Positions 32,038 through 42,873 of a stretch of DNA of 64,000 bases are shown here, in pieces. How positions within the stretch are numbered: position 1 is the stretch's first letter; each line of letters opens with the position of its first letter. The notes beneath the pieces are model-generated. The model had not been told where the DNA came from and did not search any database. It saw only the letters and a program-made list of their open reading frames with translations. The DNA comes from Peristeroidobacter soli (GTDB lineage: Bacteria > Pseudomonadota > Gammaproteobacteria > Steroidobacterales > Steroidobacteraceae). Made by a program: the position numbers and the translations under genes. The stretch is from positions 780,640-844,639 of the forward strand of contig NZ_ML142848.1 of NCBI RefSeq assembly GCF_004138485.1, written 5' to 3'.

Positions 32038-32805
32038 ATGAAGTTGAATGAAGTGCGGGCCGTCATCACGGGCGGCGCCTCGGGCCTCGGTCATGCAGTT
32101 GCGCAGCGGCTGATCGCCGCCGGCGCCAAAGTCACATTGCTGGATTTGAACGAAGCCGCCGGCCAGGAAGCCGCCAAAGCTCTGGGCGGCAGCGCGTTCT
32201 TCGCGAAAGTGGATGTGAGCGACGAAGCCGCCGTCGACGCCGCCATCGCCAAAGCCAAGAGCGACATGGGTGGCTTGAACCTCGCCGTGAATTGCGCCGG
32301 CGTCGCGACGCCCCGTCGTCTGGTCAACAAGGAAGGCGCCATGCCCGGCGACTACTTCCGCAAGATCGTCGGCATCAACCTGGTCGGCACGCTGCTGGTC
32401 TCCAAGGCCGCCGCCGCCGCCATGAGCCTCAACACGCCGAATGAAGAAGGCGAGCGGGGCGCGATCATCATGACCGCGTCGGTCGCCGCGTTCGACGGCC
32501 AGATCGGCCAGGTCGCCTACTCCGCTTCCAAGGCCGGCGTGGTCGGCATGACGCTGCCGATGGCGCGCGATCTTTCGACCGCCGGCATCCGCGTCATGAC
32601 CATCGCCCCGGGCATCTTCAAGACGCCGATGATGGCGTCGTTGCCGCAGGAAGCGCAGGATTCGCTCGGCCGGCAGGTTCCGTTCCCGCCGCGCCTGGGT
32701 CGCCCCGAGGAATACGCCGCGCTGGTCACGCACATTTGCGAGAACACGATGTTGAACGGTGAAGTCATCCGTTTGGACGGTGCGATCCGCATGTCGCCGA
32801 AGTAA
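32038..32805 (+). CDS. 3-hydroxyacyl-CoA dehydrogenase type 2-like (HSD10 family SDR)
   Basis: A 255-residue SDR with [25 protein letters not shown], the family-specific inserts around [25 protein letters not shown], and catalytic serine and YSASK ([19 protein letters not shown]). These features are characteristic of HSD10/type 2 hydroxyacyl-CoA dehydrogenases, whose physiological substrate in other organisms is 2-methyl-3-hydroxybutyryl-CoA of isoleucine degradation. With the upstream thiolase, this would complete an isoleucine-type spiral beside the leucine-type enzymes. Confidence 0.87.
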
Positions 32806-34565: not shown

Positions 34566-36119
34566 ATGGAGCCCGCCGCGCAACCGATCTGGACTCCCTC
34601 CCCCGAGCGCGCCCGCAACGCTGCGCTCACCCGCTTCTCTCATTACGTGCAAGAGCGCTACAAGGCGCCGGTGCACGACTACGCCTCGCTGCATCGCTGG
34701 TCGGTCGAGTTTCCCGAGCACTTCTGGAATGCGGTATGGGACTTCTGTGAGATCCGCAGCTCGCAGAACGCACAGCTGACGATCGAAGACGGCGCGCGCA
34801 TGCCCGGCGCCAAATGGTTCGTCGGCGCGCTGCTGAACTACGCCGAGAATTTGATTCCGGTCAGTGACGATTCGATTGCCATCATCTTTCGCAACGAGGC
34901 GGGCCAGCGCCGCGAACTGACCCGCCGCGAGCTACGCAGCGAGGTCGCGCGCGTCGCGGACGGTTTGAAGCAGGCCGGCGTGAAGATGGGCGACCGCGTC
35001 GCCGGTTATCTACCAAACATTCCAGAAGCCGTCATTGCGATGCTGGCCACCACCAGTATCGGCGCCATCTGGTCTTCGTGCCCGGCGGAATTCGACGTCA
35101 GCGCGGTGACGGATCGGTTCGGCCAGATCGAGCCGCGCGTATTGTTTGCTACTGACTCCCTGCCGAGCGTCGCGGCCATGTGCAAACAAATCTCCAGCAT
35201 CGAGCGTGTCGTGCTCGTGCCTTATCTGAATACCGATGCGAAGGCGGATCAGGTCCCACACGGCGTGCTGTTCAGTGAGTTCGGCAGGCCCGACCAGCCA
35301 TTGACCTTCACGCAACTGCCGTTCGAACAGCCGGCATTCATCGTGTATTCGTCCGGCAAGACCGGCGCGCCCAAGTGCATCGTGCACAGCGCTGGCGGCG
35401 CACTGATTCAGCAGAAGAAAGAAAACATGCTGCATTCGGACCTGGGCGCCGAAGACCGATATTTGCATGTCACGACCTGCGGCTCGGCGATGTGGAATAC
35501 GCTTGCGAGCGGACTGGCGACCGGCGCCACCATCGTGCTGTTCGATGGCACGCCATCGCAGTCGGATCCCAAGATTCTGTGGCGCATGGCGGCCGAAGAG
35601 CGCGTGACCATTTTCGGCACGGACCCGGAATTTCTCACGACCTGCGAGCAGCTGGGTTTGCGACCGCGCGAAGAGTTCGACTTGAGCGCGCTGCGGACGG
35701 TGCTATTGACCGGCGCGCCGCCGGGCCCGACTCACTATCGATACGTTTACCGGGACGTGCATCCGGACATCCACCTCGCATCCCTGTCGGACAGCACAGA
35801 CCTCATGACCTGCCTGGGCACGGGCTGCCCGACCCTGCCGGTGTACGAAGGCGAGATGCAGGCACTCGGCCTGGGAATGAAAGTGCAAGTGTTCGACGCT
35901 GCGGGTAAAGCGCTGATCGGCCAGCAGGGCGAATTGGTGTGCAGCCAGCCGTTCCCGTCCCTGCCGGAAGGCTTCTGGGGCGATGCGCCGACCGACGCTC
36001 TGGTGACCACTTATTTCTCGCGCTACCCGAATGTCTGGTGGCACGGCGAGCTGGCCACCATCACGCCCCGGGGTGGCCTGATCGTGCATGATCGCCCGGA
36101 ATCGCCCGGCCGGAACTGA
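34566..36119 (+). CDS. Truncated, motif-degenerate acetoacetyl-CoA synthetase-like protein
   Basis: A 517-residue relative of acetoacetyl-CoA synthetase (about 650 residues). The N-terminal domain is clear: SLHRWSVEFPEHFWNAVWDF, GAKWFVGALLNYAENL, YLPNIPEAVIAMLATTSIGAIWSSC. But the phosphate-loop SGTTG is SGKTG (263-267), the SGGTD motif is SDSTD (408-412), and the ribose-binding HGD is HGE (493-495). The protein stops at HDRPESPGRN, where functional enzymes read through the GRSDATL hinge into the C-terminal domain with the catalytic lysine, which is missing. Activity as a CoA ligase is therefore unlikely. The frame is otherwise uninterrupted over 1.5 kb, so it may be an old pseudogene in progress or a repurposed protein. 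Its ribosome site is weak. Confidence 0.8.
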   Translation: MEPAAQPIWTPSPERARNAALTRFSHYVQERYKAPVHDYASLHRWSVEFPEHFWNAVWDFCEIRSSQNAQLTIEDGARMPGAKWFVGALLNYAENLIPVSDDSIAIIFRNEAGQRRELTRRELRSEVARVADGLKQAGVKMGDRVAGYLPNIPEAVIAMLATTSIGAIWSSCPAEFDVSAVTDRFGQIEPRVLFATDSLPSVAAMCKQISSIERVVLVPYLNTDAKADQVPHGVLFSEFGRPDQPLTFTQLPFEQPAFIVYSSGKTGAPKCIVHSAGGALIQQKKENMLHSDLGAEDRYLHVTTCGSAMWNTLASGLATGATIVLFDGTPSQSDPKILWRMAAEERVTIFGTDPEFLTTCEQLGLRPREEFDLSALRTVLLTGAPPGPTHYRYVYRDVHPDIHLASLSDSTDLMTCLGTGCPTLPVYEGEMQALGLGMKVQVFDAAGKALIGQQGELVCSQPFPSLPEGFWGDAPTDALVTTYFSRYPNVWWHGELATITPRGGLIVHDRPESPGRN

Positions 36120-36166
36120 AGCTCGGTTACTATGGGCGCCGACAGGATCTCGCGAAAGCTTCAGCA

Positions 36167-37276
36167 GTGCCCGACCACCTTACGCCCGCCACCACCGTCG
36201 CCGCCCTCTACCAACGCGAATGCGCCCGCCTCGGGTATCAACGTGATCCCGTGCAGGAGCGCGTCGTCGCCTTGCTGGACAATCTGCGGGAGCGGCTGAT
36301 CGCTCCACAGCCCAAGGGAGGCCTGCTCAAAGGCCTGTTGTCGCGCAAGGAACATCGGCTGCAAAAGGGTCTGTACCTCTGGGGCGGCGTCGGTCGCGGC
36401 AAGACCTGGCTGATGGACCTGTTCTATCAGAGCCTGCCGTTCAAGGAGCGCCAGCGCAGCCATTTCCACCGTTTCATGCAGTCGGTGCACGACGAGCTGA
36501 AGAAACATCAGGACCGCGCCGATCCGCTGGAACTGATCGCCGAGAAGATCGCGAAGAAGACTCGCATCATCTGTTTCGATGAGTTCTTTGTCTCCGACAT
36601 CGCGGACGCGATGTTGCTCGGCACGTTGTTTGGCGCGCTGTTCCAGCGCGGTGTCACGTTGGTGGCAACGTCGAACGTGGAGCCCGACAATCTCTACAAG
36701 GAAGGTCTGCAGCGCGCCCGCTTCGTGCCAGCGATCAAGTTGTTGAAAGAGCACACCCAGGTCGTGCACGTCGACAGCAAGACCGACTATCGCCTGCGCC
36801 TGCTGGAACGAGCGACGACGTGGTTCGATTCGCAGGATGCGAAAACCACCCCGGCACTGGTGAACCTGTTCGAAGCGATGGCAGGTGAACCCGGAGCGGC
36901 CGATGCGACGCTGACGTTGAATCATCGCCGCCTGCACGCCCGGCGCCATGCGGGCGATGTCATCTGGTTCACGTTCAAGGAACTCTGTGACGGCCCGCGC
37001 GGCCAGGCGGACTACATCGAGATCGCCCGTTGTTATCACACGGTGTTCGTCAGCGACATTCCGGCGCTCGGCGTGGAATCGGAGAATCAGACGCGACGGT
37101 TCATCACGATGGTCGATGAGTTCTACGACCGCGCCGTCAAACTGATCATCTCAGCCGAGAAGCCGGTGATCGATCTGTATCACGGCGCGAAGCTGAAGTT
37201 TGAATTCGAGCGTACGCAGAGCCGGCTGATCGAGATGCAGTCGCAGGAATACCTGGCGCGGCCGCATCAGCCCTGA
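36167..37276 (+). CDS. zapE: Cell division protein ZapE (AFG1-like ATPase)
   Basis: A 369-residue P-loop ATPase. Walker A GGVGRGKT is at residues 73-80 (GLYLWGGVGRGKTWLMDLF), Walker B is IICFDEFFVSDIADAM and the sensor region TLVATSNVEPDNLY follows; the C-terminal AFG1 signature includes RFITMVDEFYDRAVKL. In E. coli ZapE associates with the Z-ring under stress. Start GTG 36167. It converges on the TPR gene over a 117-bp gap that holds no clear terminator. Confidence 0.95.
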   Translation: MPDHLTPATTVAALYQRECARLGYQRDPVQERVVALLDNLRERLIAPQPKGGLLKGLLSRKEHRLQKGLYLWGGVGRGKTWLMDLFYQSLPFKERQRSHFHRFMQSVHDELKKHQDRADPLELIAEKIAKKTRIICFDEFFVSDIADAMLLGTLFGALFQRGVTLVATSNVEPDNLYKEGLQRARFVPAIKLLKEHTQVVHVDSKTDYRLRLLERATTWFDSQDAKTTPALVNLFEAMAGEPGAADATLTLNHRRLHARRHAGDVIWFTFKELCDGPRGQADYIEIARCYHTVFVSDIPALGVESENQTRRFITMVDEFYDRAVKLIISAEKPVIDLYHGAKLKFEFERTQSRLIEMQSQEYLARPHQP

Positions 37277-38985: not shown

Positions 38986-41900
38986 GTGAGTGAACTAACG
39001 TTACAAGTGCTCGGGTCATTTCACGTCCGCGACGCGAGCGGCGGCGAAGTCCGCATTGCCTCCCGCAAAGGTCGCGCCCTGCTCGCCTATCTGGCCCTGC
39101 GTCCCGGTGAATCTCACAGCCGCGACCGCCTGGCCACGTTGCTTTGGGAAGATGCCGACGAGGAGCTGGCACGCACCAGCTTGCGTCAGGCACTGGCCGC
39201 GCTTCGAAAATCACTGCCGTCCGGGGCGCAGGCGGCGTTGCTGGCCGATACTGAGACCGTAGGCGTCGATGCCGGATTGCTACAAAGTGACATCGGCGCC
39301 TTCCGCGACTCCCTGCTCGCCGGCACGCGCACTTCGTTACAAGACGCGATCAATCACTATCGCGGCGATTTGTTGGATGGCTTCGACGCGCGCTCCACTG
39401 CCTTCGATGAATGGCTGAGCAGCGAGCGCAGCGCTCTGCGCAAACAGATGAGTGAGGCCCTGCAGCGGCTCACCGATCTGTGCGTGGCATCGGAAGACAA
39501 CGACGGCGCGCTGACCGCATCCATCAAGCTCGTCTCTCTGGAGCCCCTGAACGAAGCCGCTCACCGGCGCATCATGGAGCTGCAGGCAAGGCGCAACTCC
39601 TACGCTGAAGCGCTCCGACAGTACCGCGTGTGCCGCGATGTGCTGCGCCGGGAACTGGATGTTTCTCCCGAGGCGGCCACCGACCAGTTGTATCGAGAAC
39701 TGATGCGTAAACGTCGCGCGGCGGTTTCTGAGCCCGTGGACGGCGAGTCGTTCATCGATGAGCCGGCTGAAGCAGCGCCGGCACCGGCAGCGCGCCAGGA
39801 ACTCCGCCCCAGCCTGCGTGACGCGACGATCTTCGTCGCCCGCCTCGAAGGCTTACTGGAAACAGAGGCTCGACTCGATCCCGAAGAAGCGCATTTGCTG
39901 TCGAATGAGTTTCAGTGCCGAGTGCAGAGTGCGGTCCGGGAATTCGGCGGGCTGGCGGATCGACGCGTCGGCTCGAACGTCATGGCGGCCTTCGGCATTC
40001 CTCATTCCTACGGAAACGAAGCTGAACGCGCCGCACGAGCCGCGCTGATGTTACGTGACATGGTGAACGCGAAGCCGTGGCCTGTGCCCGGCTCGATGGC
40101 ACTGCGCATCGGCATCGCTCAGGGACAAATCCTCTGCGGCACCGAAGTGTTTCCTCTGAGCGGACGGCCCACGCACGAAGCGCACATTCTTGCCGCTCAA
40201 GCCCAGGACGGCGAAGTACTGATTTCGGAGGACATTCGCCAGTCGCTGGGTGAGCGCGTCAGCACTCAACGCGTCGGAGCGGCGATGCAAGCCCATTCCG
40301 AACCGGTGAATGCCTGGGCATTGAATGCCATCGGCGCCGAAAGCGGCACGACTGCACAGCCGTTTGTGGGTCGCCGCCCCGAGCTGGCGATGATTCTCGC
40401 ATCGCTGGATCGATGCATGTCGAGCCGACATGGCCGTGCCATCGTGGTGCGCGGTGAAGCGGGTATCGGCAAGACGCGACTGGTCGATGCGGTCCGCAGT
40501 ACCGCCGTCGAGCGCGGCGTCGGCGTGCACTCGGCACAGATCTTCGATTTCGGCCAGTCTCCGGGCCGGCGCCCGATCACCATGCTCGCTCTGAGTCTGC
40601 TCGGCATTCGTGCCGACGCGCCCGCTACCGAACGCAAGGCGGCCGTGCAACGAATGGCGGCATCGCGAGGCGGCAATATCGATCAAATCATTTTCCTGAG
40701 CGACCTGATCGATGCGCCGCTGGATCCGGAGCTGGCGGCACTGGAAAAAGCGATGGAAGTCGCCACGCGTCAGCGAGGCCGCACGCTTGCACTCGCGCAG
40801 ATCATTGAAACGGCAGCACAGCGCTCGCCACAATTGCTGATCGTCGAAGATGTGCACTGGGCGGACACCGATGAGCTGGCGCGACTCGGAGAGATCGCAG
40901 CCGTGGTCGCGAACTGCCAGATTCTGTTCATCATGACGACGCGCCCCGAAGGCGATCCGATCAGCGCGAGCTGGCGCGCTCGTGCGCGCGGTTGCCCGGT
41001 AACGACGGTCGACCTCGCTCCGCTGGCAGAAGACGAAGCCCAGGAGCTGGCCGCACACTATCCCGAGCTGTCGAGCGAGACGATCCAGGAATGTATCGTG
41101 CGCGCCGAGGGCTATCCGTTGTTTCTGGATCAGCTGTTGCGCTCGGCCAGTGCCGGCCAGCATGCATTGCCAGGATCGGTGCGTTCGTTGGTGCTGTCGC
41201 GTGCGGACAGCTTATCTCCGCTGGATCACCTGGCGCTCGAAGCCGCGGCCGTGCTCGGCCAGCGCACCGAACTGGCGATCATTCGCCGCATGATCGAAGA
41301 CGAGAGTTACGAGCCGGAGAAGCTGATCGCCACCACGCTGGTTCGCAGTGATGGCGTCGAGCTGGAGTTTGCTCACGCGCTGTTCCGTGACGCGATTTAT
41401 GAGTCGACGCTGAAATCGCAGCGACGCGCCCTGCATCGAGTCGCAGCCGCCTGGTTCGGATCACGCGATCTCTCGTTACACGCGGAGCACCTGGCAGCTG
41501 CCGATGACGACGGCGCCGCCGAGGCTTACCTAAGAGCTGCCGAGGCCGAGCGTACGTTGCTTCGTTACGAACGAGCGCTCAACCTTGCGAACAAGGCCAG
41601 CGCCGTCGCGCGCGAGCCGATGATGCTGCACAGGACGAGCGTGCTGCTCGGCGAACTGCTCCTGCATCTGGGCCGGACTCACGATGCTCTAGCGGCATTC
41701 CGGGAGGCGCTGGACTTCGCCATCGACCAGAGCGGTCATGGCGCCGCGTGGCTCGGCATTTCCTCCGCTCTGCGCATCATGGACCGCTACGAAGAGGCGC
41801 TCGAAGCATTGGAGCGCGCGCAGAACATCTTCGGCGACACCACCGATGCGCGGACCCGGGCTCGCATGAGCACGCTCCAGGGCAATCTTTATTTTCCGTT

Positions 41901-42864
41901 GGGTCGCTTCGATGCGTGCCTGCAGGCACACCAGAAGGCCTATCAATTTGCCCAGGAAGCAAACTCCCCGGACGAACTGGCGCGAGCGCTCGGCGGCCTG
42001 GGCGACGCTCACTATCAACGCGGCAACTTGCTGACGGCGCGCAAACATTTCGTACAGTGCGTGAAGGAAGCGCGTGAGCACGGCTTGATCGGCGTGCTGC
42101 TCGCGAACTTGCCCATGGTCGGCATTACCCAGGTCTATTGCGGCGAAGTCGCCGCCGGCCGCTCTGCCTTGCAGGAATGCCGGGAGATCGCATGCCGCGT
42201 CGGCGACCTGCGCAGCGAAATGATTTCGGTGTTGTGCCTAACCTCCGGCTTGATCCTGCAAGGTAAGAACGAGGAACGCGCCAACCTGGCCAGACAGGCG
42301 CTGCAACTGGCCAAACAGCTCGGGGCGCGCCGCTTCCATGCCGAGTGTCTGGGCATCCTCGCCAGCTGCATGAGCGAGCCGGAGAGTCGCAACGAGGCTT
42401 TGCAACTGGTCGAGGAAGGACTGCAACTCAGCCGCGAAATGGGCATGTCCTACTGTGGCGCTTCCTTGCTCGGCATATTGGCCCGACTGACGTCCGATCC
42501 GGCGCAACGCGCGGCGGCGCTGGCGGAAGGGGAAACGGTGCTGGCGTCAGGCTGCGTCAGTCACAGCTATTTCGAGTTCTACCATCACGCGATGGAAGTG
42601 AGCATCGAGCAGAGCGCCTGGCAGGCCGCGCGCCGTTACGCAAACGACCTCGCCACTTATACGGCGGCTGAGCCGCTGGCGCCGACGGATCTGCAGAGCG
42701 CGCGGGCACGCCTGTTGGCGGACGTGGGCGAGAACGTCATCACGTCACAAACGCTGCCCGAGCTCGAATCGCTCAAGCAGCGCTGTCATCACATGGACGC
42801 AGTGGCGCTCATCCCGGCGATCGACGCGGCGATCACACTGGTTGGACGAGCGCCGACAGCCTGA
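38986..42864 (+). CDS. Giant BTAD/SARP-type regulator with degenerate cyclase, AAA ATPase and TPR domains
   Basis: A 1292-residue multidomain protein. Residues 1-100 form an OmpR/SARP-like winged helix (LTLQVLGSFHVRDASGGEVRI...KGRALLAYLALRPG...RDRLATLLW), and 100-245 a BTAD domain (ALRQYRVCRDVLRRELDVSPE). Residues 278-430 are a class III cyclase-like domain in which both metal-binding aspartates are replaced (R286 in TIFVARLEGLL, S330 in RRVGSNVMAAFG). A STAND-type ATPase follows, Walker A GEAGIGKT (490-497) and Walker B LLIVEDVHWAD (617-627), then TPR-like repeats to the end. Such proteins sense an unknown signal and control transcription. Start GTG 38986 lacks a strong ribosome site. Divergent from a TPR protein gene. 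Confidence 0.88.
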   Translation: MSELTLQVLGSFHVRDASGGEVRIASRKGRALLAYLALRPGESHSRDRLATLLWEDADEELARTSLRQALAALRKSLPSGAQAALLADTETVGVDAGLLQSDIGAFRDSLLAGTRTSLQDAINHYRGDLLDGFDARSTAFDEWLSSERSALRKQMSEALQRLTDLCVASEDNDGALTASIKLVSLEPLNEAAHRRIMELQARRNSYAEALRQYRVCRDVLRRELDVSPEAATDQLYRELMRKRRAAVSEPVDGESFIDEPAEAAPAPAARQELRPSLRDATIFVARLEGLLETEARLDPEEAHLLSNEFQCRVQSAVREFGGLADRRVGSNVMAAFGIPHSYGNEAERAARAALMLRDMVNAKPWPVPGSMALRIGIAQGQILCGTEVFPLSGRPTHEAHILAAQAQDGEVLISEDIRQSLGERVSTQRVGAAMQAHSEPVNAWALNAIGAESGTTAQPFVGRRPELAMILASLDRCMSSRHGRAIVVRGEAGIGKTRLVDAVRSTAVERGVGVHSAQIFDFGQSPGRRPITMLALSLLGIRADAPATERKAAVQRMAASRGGNIDQIIFLSDLIDAPLDPELAALEKAMEVATRQRGRTLALAQIIETAAQRSPQLLIVEDVHWADTDELARLGEIAAVVANCQILFIMTTRPEGDPISASWRARARGCPVTTVDLAPLAEDEAQELAAHYPELSSETIQECIVRAEGYPLFLDQLLRSASAGQHALPGSVRSLVLSRADSLSPLDHLALEAAAVLGQRTELAIIRRMIEDESYEPEKLIATTLVRSDGVELEFAHALFRDAIYESTLKSQRRALHRVAAAWFGSRDLSLHAEHLAAADDDGAAEAYLRAAEAERTLLRYERALNLANKASAVAREPMMLHRTSVLLGELLLHLGRTHDALAAFREALDFAIDQSGHGAAWLGISSALRIMDRYEEALEALERAQNIFGDTTDARTRARMSTLQGNLYFPLGRFDACLQAHQKAYQFAQEANSPDELARALGGLGDAHYQRGNLLTARKHFVQCVKEAREHGLIGVLLANLPMVGITQVYCGEVAAGRSALQECREIACRVGDLRSEMISVLCLTSGLILQGKNEERANLARQALQLAKQLGARRFHAECLGILASCMSEPESRNEALQLVEEGLQLSREMGMSYCGASLLGILARLTSDPAQRAAALAEGETVLASGCVSHSYFEFYHHAMEVSIEQSAWQAARRYANDLATYTAAEPLAPTDLQSARARLLADVGENVITSQTLPELESLKQRCHHMDAVALIPAIDAAITLVGRAPTA

Positions 42865-42873
42865 CGCGGCCGA

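Follow-up and report, generated by a model that had tools for sequence, protein, structure and literature searches.

An acetoacetyl-CoA synthetase gene of Peristeroidobacter soli, probably in recent decay, with an undecayed first third

Is the shortened acetoacetyl-CoA synthetase (AACS) frame in the 64,000-nucleotide stretch of DNA analysed here (the window) a gene in decay, or does it encode a truncated protein kept for a role other than catalysis? The source genome comprises 9.37 Mb in 17 contigs, and the locus lies on a 2-Mb contig (C1). As the initial annotation stated, the frame is uninterrupted over 517 codons, running from an ATG at 34566 to a TGA at 36117-36119 without a stop. It is placed between two conserved genes as follows.

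34566-36119, plus strand: AACS remnant, 517-codon open frame, assigned from the frame and a match to TIGR01217
32875-34488, plus strand: ETF-QO (name from the initial annotation), conserved upstream neighbour, 95.5% identical to its counterpart in congener G001
36167-37276, plus strand: zapE, conserved downstream neighbour, assigned from synteny and a profile match

The remnant scores 562 bits against the acetoacetate--CoA ligase profile TIGR01217, above the cut-off of 521, so that annotation pipelines may label it a working ligase; against PRK03584 it reaches 620.5 bits, under the cut-off of 639. Functional AACS requires full-length N- and C-terminal domains, and the TIGR01217 match covers only positions 3 to 522 of 652. 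Pfam searches find ACAS_N and AMP-binding in the remnant and no match to AMP-binding_C, a domain that is likewise not matched in a second, distant AACS of this genome (on contig C5, described below) and stays below the cut-off in the G001 protein. The intact G001 orthologue, which begins at the same ATG, has 650 amino acids, and its alignment with the remnant ends near residue 523 (513 remnant residues in 523 columns). Because the match stops there, approximately 127 amino acids are missing from the C-terminal end, in agreement with the domain loss proposed from the sequence alone. The deleted region corresponds to that which carries, in the C-terminal domain of homologues, a GK motif whose lysine we take to be the catalytic lysine.

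Matches to AACS at E 1e-60 occur in nine of the 14 genomes of the genus, this one included, and a contig scan with peptide patterns, which detects close relatives only, yielded five loci and gave Steroidobacter agaridevorans, Peristeroidobacter agariperforans and Steroidobacter gossypii as the best matches of the remnant gene. Five congeners (G001, G011, G010, G005 and G007) have a full-length orthologue followed by zapE. The order IVD-ECH-SDR-SDR-ETFQO-AACS-zapE, with AACS intact, is common to G001, G011 and G010; G007 has ETFQO-AACS-zapE, and G005 has AACS-zapE on a contig that starts within the last 26 residues of ETF-QO. In a tree of homologues the remnant groups with G001 and G011 (98/95), its end branch measuring 0.19 as against 0.016 and 0.05 for these two. 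Identity to the G001 counterpart is 88-97% for six neighbouring proteins and 79% for the remnant. Synteny, the tree and the deletion scar at the 3′ end together show that an intact orthologue was disrupted in this lineage.

No other genome was found to share this form. Among the 60 relatives searched, 40 (again counting this genome) match at E 1e-60, and no homologue with the truncation of the remnant appears among the matches listed. Beyond the window, these AACS matches all have frames open over at least 646 codons, save one of 484 codons in G038. That frame was rejected as a truncation, as a run of N breaks it and the C-terminal part follows; a family of homologues sharing the truncation was rejected with it. 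The search of plasmid records (636 records) gave identities below 60% throughout, and none of the titles listed in literature searches on AACS pseudogenes, Steroidobacter genomes and AACS structure concerns this gene.

Two deletions account for the difference in length between the remnant and its orthologues, and their positions follow from the alignments.

36096-36121, plus strand: scar of the approximately 370-bp 3′ deletion, from alignment with G001 and G011
35154-35159, plus strand: site of the internal 30-bp deletion; two GAC triplets flank the missing stretch in G001

The first of these took away about 370 bp close to the 3′ end of the coding part; by alignment to G001 the net loss is 364 bp, a length not divisible by three. 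Immediately ahead of its stop the remnant has 16 bases identical to the G001 and G011 codons for the C-terminal residues RPELK, read in another frame, and the TGA itself consists of old C-terminal codons in the shifted frame. Because the junction is out of frame with these codons, the end of the remnant is a deletion scar; the hinge at which the frame had been thought to end is rejected as a domain boundary. The accompanying statement that no frameshift is present holds for the body of the gene, where neither a stop nor a frameshift occurs upstream of the junction, but fails at the 3′ end. The second deletion, at residue 198, is in frame and replaces GYQYAGKRIDC with S. A C-terminal domain split off and kept elsewhere was also considered and rejected: a search of the genome with the C-terminal part of a congener found other ligases only and no piece of the lost domain, the best match besides the remnant being the other AACS, at 41%.

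Conserved motifs are altered as well, at the following places, each established by comparison with homologues.

35346-35366, plus strand: YSSGTTG changed to YSSGKTG
35784-35801, plus strand: ISGGTD changed to LSDSTD
36042-36050, plus strand: HGD changed to HGE
35079-35099, plus strand: conserved CSPDFGA changed to CPAEFDV
35472-35498, plus strand: TTCGWVMWN changed to TTCGSAMWN (CGW to CGS)

Functional AACS requires SGTTG, SGGTD and HGD, in place of which the remnant has SGKTG at residues 263-267, SDSTD at 408-412 and HGE at 493-495. The three substitutions, read correctly by the initial annotation, are confirmed: all 25 reference homologues retain SGTTG and GGTD, and 22 of them the literal string HGD, whose D column is invariant in all 25. 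(Loci L038, L039 and L040 entered the motif check only; L039 is without the string HGD.) Among the other invariant residues altered in the adenylation core are L386, now P, and W307, now S. The CSPDFGA and CGW changes, like the 30-bp deletion and the out-of-frame 3′ junction, had not been listed before.

That these alterations exceed normal divergence is shown by codon likelihoods computed for four taxa with a purpose-written program. The branch leading to the remnant has a dN/dS of 0.239, compared with 0.066 elsewhere (p = 4e-6), and over the whole branch the value is also below 1 (p = 6e-4). Of six neighbouring genes, one has a raised dN/dS on the same branch: SDR2 (32038-32805), two places upstream, with 0.133 versus 0.038 (p = 0.002). 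Columns that are invariant in 25 homologues changed on the remnant branch in 16 of 100 cases and on the G010 branch in two of 100; two of the 16 changes, at residues 145 and 504, are back to the residue typical of the family. With 22 homologues the counts are 16 and two of 114. Three of the 29 homologue loci, L023, L033 and L036, fell to a motif filter and are absent from the 22-homologue count, the tree and the column classes; they were added back for the 25-homologue count with a like result. L002 and L037, being distant, do not belong to the reference set.

Within residues 163-510 the remnant changed at 20 of 144 conserved, 17 of 86 intermediate and 14 of 118 variable columns, whereas the G010 branch has three, seven and 20 changes in the same classes. 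Because conserved columns changed at about the rate of variable ones, site-specific constraint is lost in this part of the gene. These column counts use the 58 changes for which an ancestral residue could be assigned by agreement of G010 with G001 or G011; the clustering and change-point analyses use 74, accepting also residues for which G007 supports G001 and G011.

The first third of the gene has escaped this fate.

34566-35051, plus strand: residues 1-162, spared part, with seven changes in 161 columns versus 51 in 348 for residues 163-510

Over the first 138 codon columns (to residue 144) dN/dS is 0.080 against a background of 0.095, and over the rest of the gene it is 0.307 against 0.056, still below 1 (LRT 6.09). 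Columns 138-260 have a poorly determined dN/dS of 12, with a dS of 0.008, which is not different from 1 (LRT 0.37). Amino-acid changes number six in the first 138 columns and 68 in the other 369 (p = 1.8e-5, for a boundary chosen post hoc); a change-point test corrected for the choice of boundary gives p = 0.0005 with the best point at residue 65, and the changes are clustered both overall (p = 0.0006) and after the change-point (p = 0.0065). Because the first 144 or so residues are under normal constraint, uniform simple decay is not the full explanation. A dN/dS below 1 fits a branch that was neutral only in its last part, and it also fits a mere weakening of constraint. Three explanations offer themselves: recombination that brought in an intact 5′ part, continuing selection on the 5′ part, or a weakening of constraint short of its loss.

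Other features also sit uneasily with simple decay. No nonsense changes are seen, versus approximately three (1.7 to 4.3) expected under neutrality; the probability of no stop is about 0.05 for the 14 informative changes observed, and 0.18 to 0.014 if 8 to 20 are assumed. Indels at an assumed 5-10% of substitutions would number five to nine, and those seen are the internal deletion and the 3′ deletion. The changes in residues 163-510 are milder than neutral ones would be, with a mean BLOSUM62 score of 0.02 (s.e. 0.21) against −0.57.

The loss of this gene need not have deprived the cell of acetoacetate activation. A second intact AACS, for which the initial annotation had advised a search, is present on contig C5, adjoining a TonB-dependent receptor: its 702-codon frame (stop to stop) is 37% identical to the remnant and has all motifs intact. 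The C5 protein has matches at E 1e-100 in eight of the 13 other genomes of the genus, and because all eight are at 40-48% identity, none looks like a close orthologue. A CoA-transferase pair, the sole such pair in this genome, lies beside a thiolase on contig C3. G001, G011, G010 and G007 have such a pair 6.7 to 8.1 kb from their AACS gene, 87-99% identical to that of G001, and none was found in G005. In G001 the pair is flanked by a large regulator gene and metH, which in the window are nine bases apart.

42865-42873, no strand: deletion point of the CoA-transferase pair, nine bases, where G001 has approximately 1.6 kb including the pair

The regulator, a 1292-codon frame (38986-42864) conserved in G001, has BTAD, AAA and TPR domains as well as a weak guanylate-cyclase-like stretch below the cut-off. 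With AACS broken and the CoA-transferase pair missing between regulator and metH, two enzymes of this locus that could activate acetoacetate have been lost in this lineage, through three deletions within 8 kb, two in the AACS gene and one of the transferase pair. Judging from their families, the CoA-transferases would act on acetoacetate, and the C5 and C3 genes may stand in for those lost.

The remnant had been described as following ETF-QO in a branched-chain cluster that ends in acetoacetate. An acyl-CoA catabolic cluster is indeed present; acetoacetate as its end product is unsupported, because the HMG-CoA lyases lie on other contigs. Five matches exceed the cut-off in this genome, on C5, C8, C9 and C10, and none is on C1. 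Each of the four congeners searched has one or two such matches.

Taken together, the evidence makes it probable that the remnant is a recently inactivated, decaying AACS gene, dispensable through redundancy. A full-length orthologue, at the place that it occupies in congeners, would have been inactivated in this lineage and would now be decaying. Most of the C-terminal domain, lysine motif included, went with the deletion of about 370 bp, which left a tail read out of frame; the 30-bp deletion and missense changes altered invariant sites of the adenylation core, and AACS activity is presumably absent. The loss would have been tolerated because the distant C5 enzyme, with its intact motifs, and the C3 transferase pair were kept. 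That the frame is still open may reflect the small number of neutral changes accrued, about 50-130. The locus would then be a gene loss caught early, apparently redundant and with its frame open though the active site is gone. Of the two readings initially offered, decay is supported for residues 163-517 by the loss of site-specific constraint, the frameshifting 3′ deletion, the internal deletion and the second AACS elsewhere in the genome; as uniform decay it does not account for the normally constrained first 144 or so residues.

The spared first third of such a pseudogene could have come from an intact allele by recombination, or the N-terminal part could still be under some selection. Replacement of the 5′ third from an intact allele of the population, counted here within the decay reading, is a tentative possibility that would make the decay uneven. 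In its favour, the 5′ and 3′ parts differ in their rates of change, and parsimony assigns synonymous changes to 10 of 85 determined columns in the 5′ part and 52 of 247 in the 3′ part as raw counts, but maximum-likelihood dS is equal in the two parts (0.303 and 0.306).

It is unlikely that the truncated protein is instead still made and selected in a non-catalytic form, with an N-terminal role in folding, binding or complex formation and a nucleotide site free to change. Normal constraint on the first 138 codon columns, a frame free of stops, an internal deletion that is in frame, and changes that are clustered and rather mild would all fit such a protein. However, the adenylation core changes regardless of conservation (L386 to P and W307 to S, for example), the last codons are an out-of-frame scar, and no second genome with the same form was found among those searched. 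Residues 1-162 of AACS are not known to be a domain that stands alone. The initial suggestion that a nucleotide- or substrate-binding domain was kept is not supported, in that constraint was lost in the very half that carries the nucleotide-site motifs. More doubtful still is a new use, adopted once the C-terminal domain was gone, for a catalytically dead AACS fragment, which might serve the distant AACS as a partner or regulator; selection would maintain its N-terminal third and leave what was the ATP-binding core to change, freely or adaptively. A sequencing or assembly error is very improbable, given that this one gene has two deletions and between 58 and 74 assigned amino-acid changes and that its neighbours on the same 2-Mb contig are mostly normal.

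Compared with acetoacetate--CoA ligase as defined by TIGR01217 and PRK03584, and with the solved structure 4WD1, to which it aligns with 410 bits, the remnant is orthologous and alignable over the N-terminal and AMP-binding parts, but differs from the full-length enzyme in having no C-terminal domain, three altered motifs and 10 fewer internal residues. Young bacterial pseudogenes whose frames are truncated yet open are a known kind, and the remnant resembles them in its deletion scar, raised dN/dS, lost site-specific constraint and possible genomic substitute. It departs from them in a first third that has not decayed and in the absence of an internal stop. For the most part this is gene loss of an ordinary sort, its puzzle being the undecayed first third; should sister strains show the same unevenness, it would deserve an explanation.
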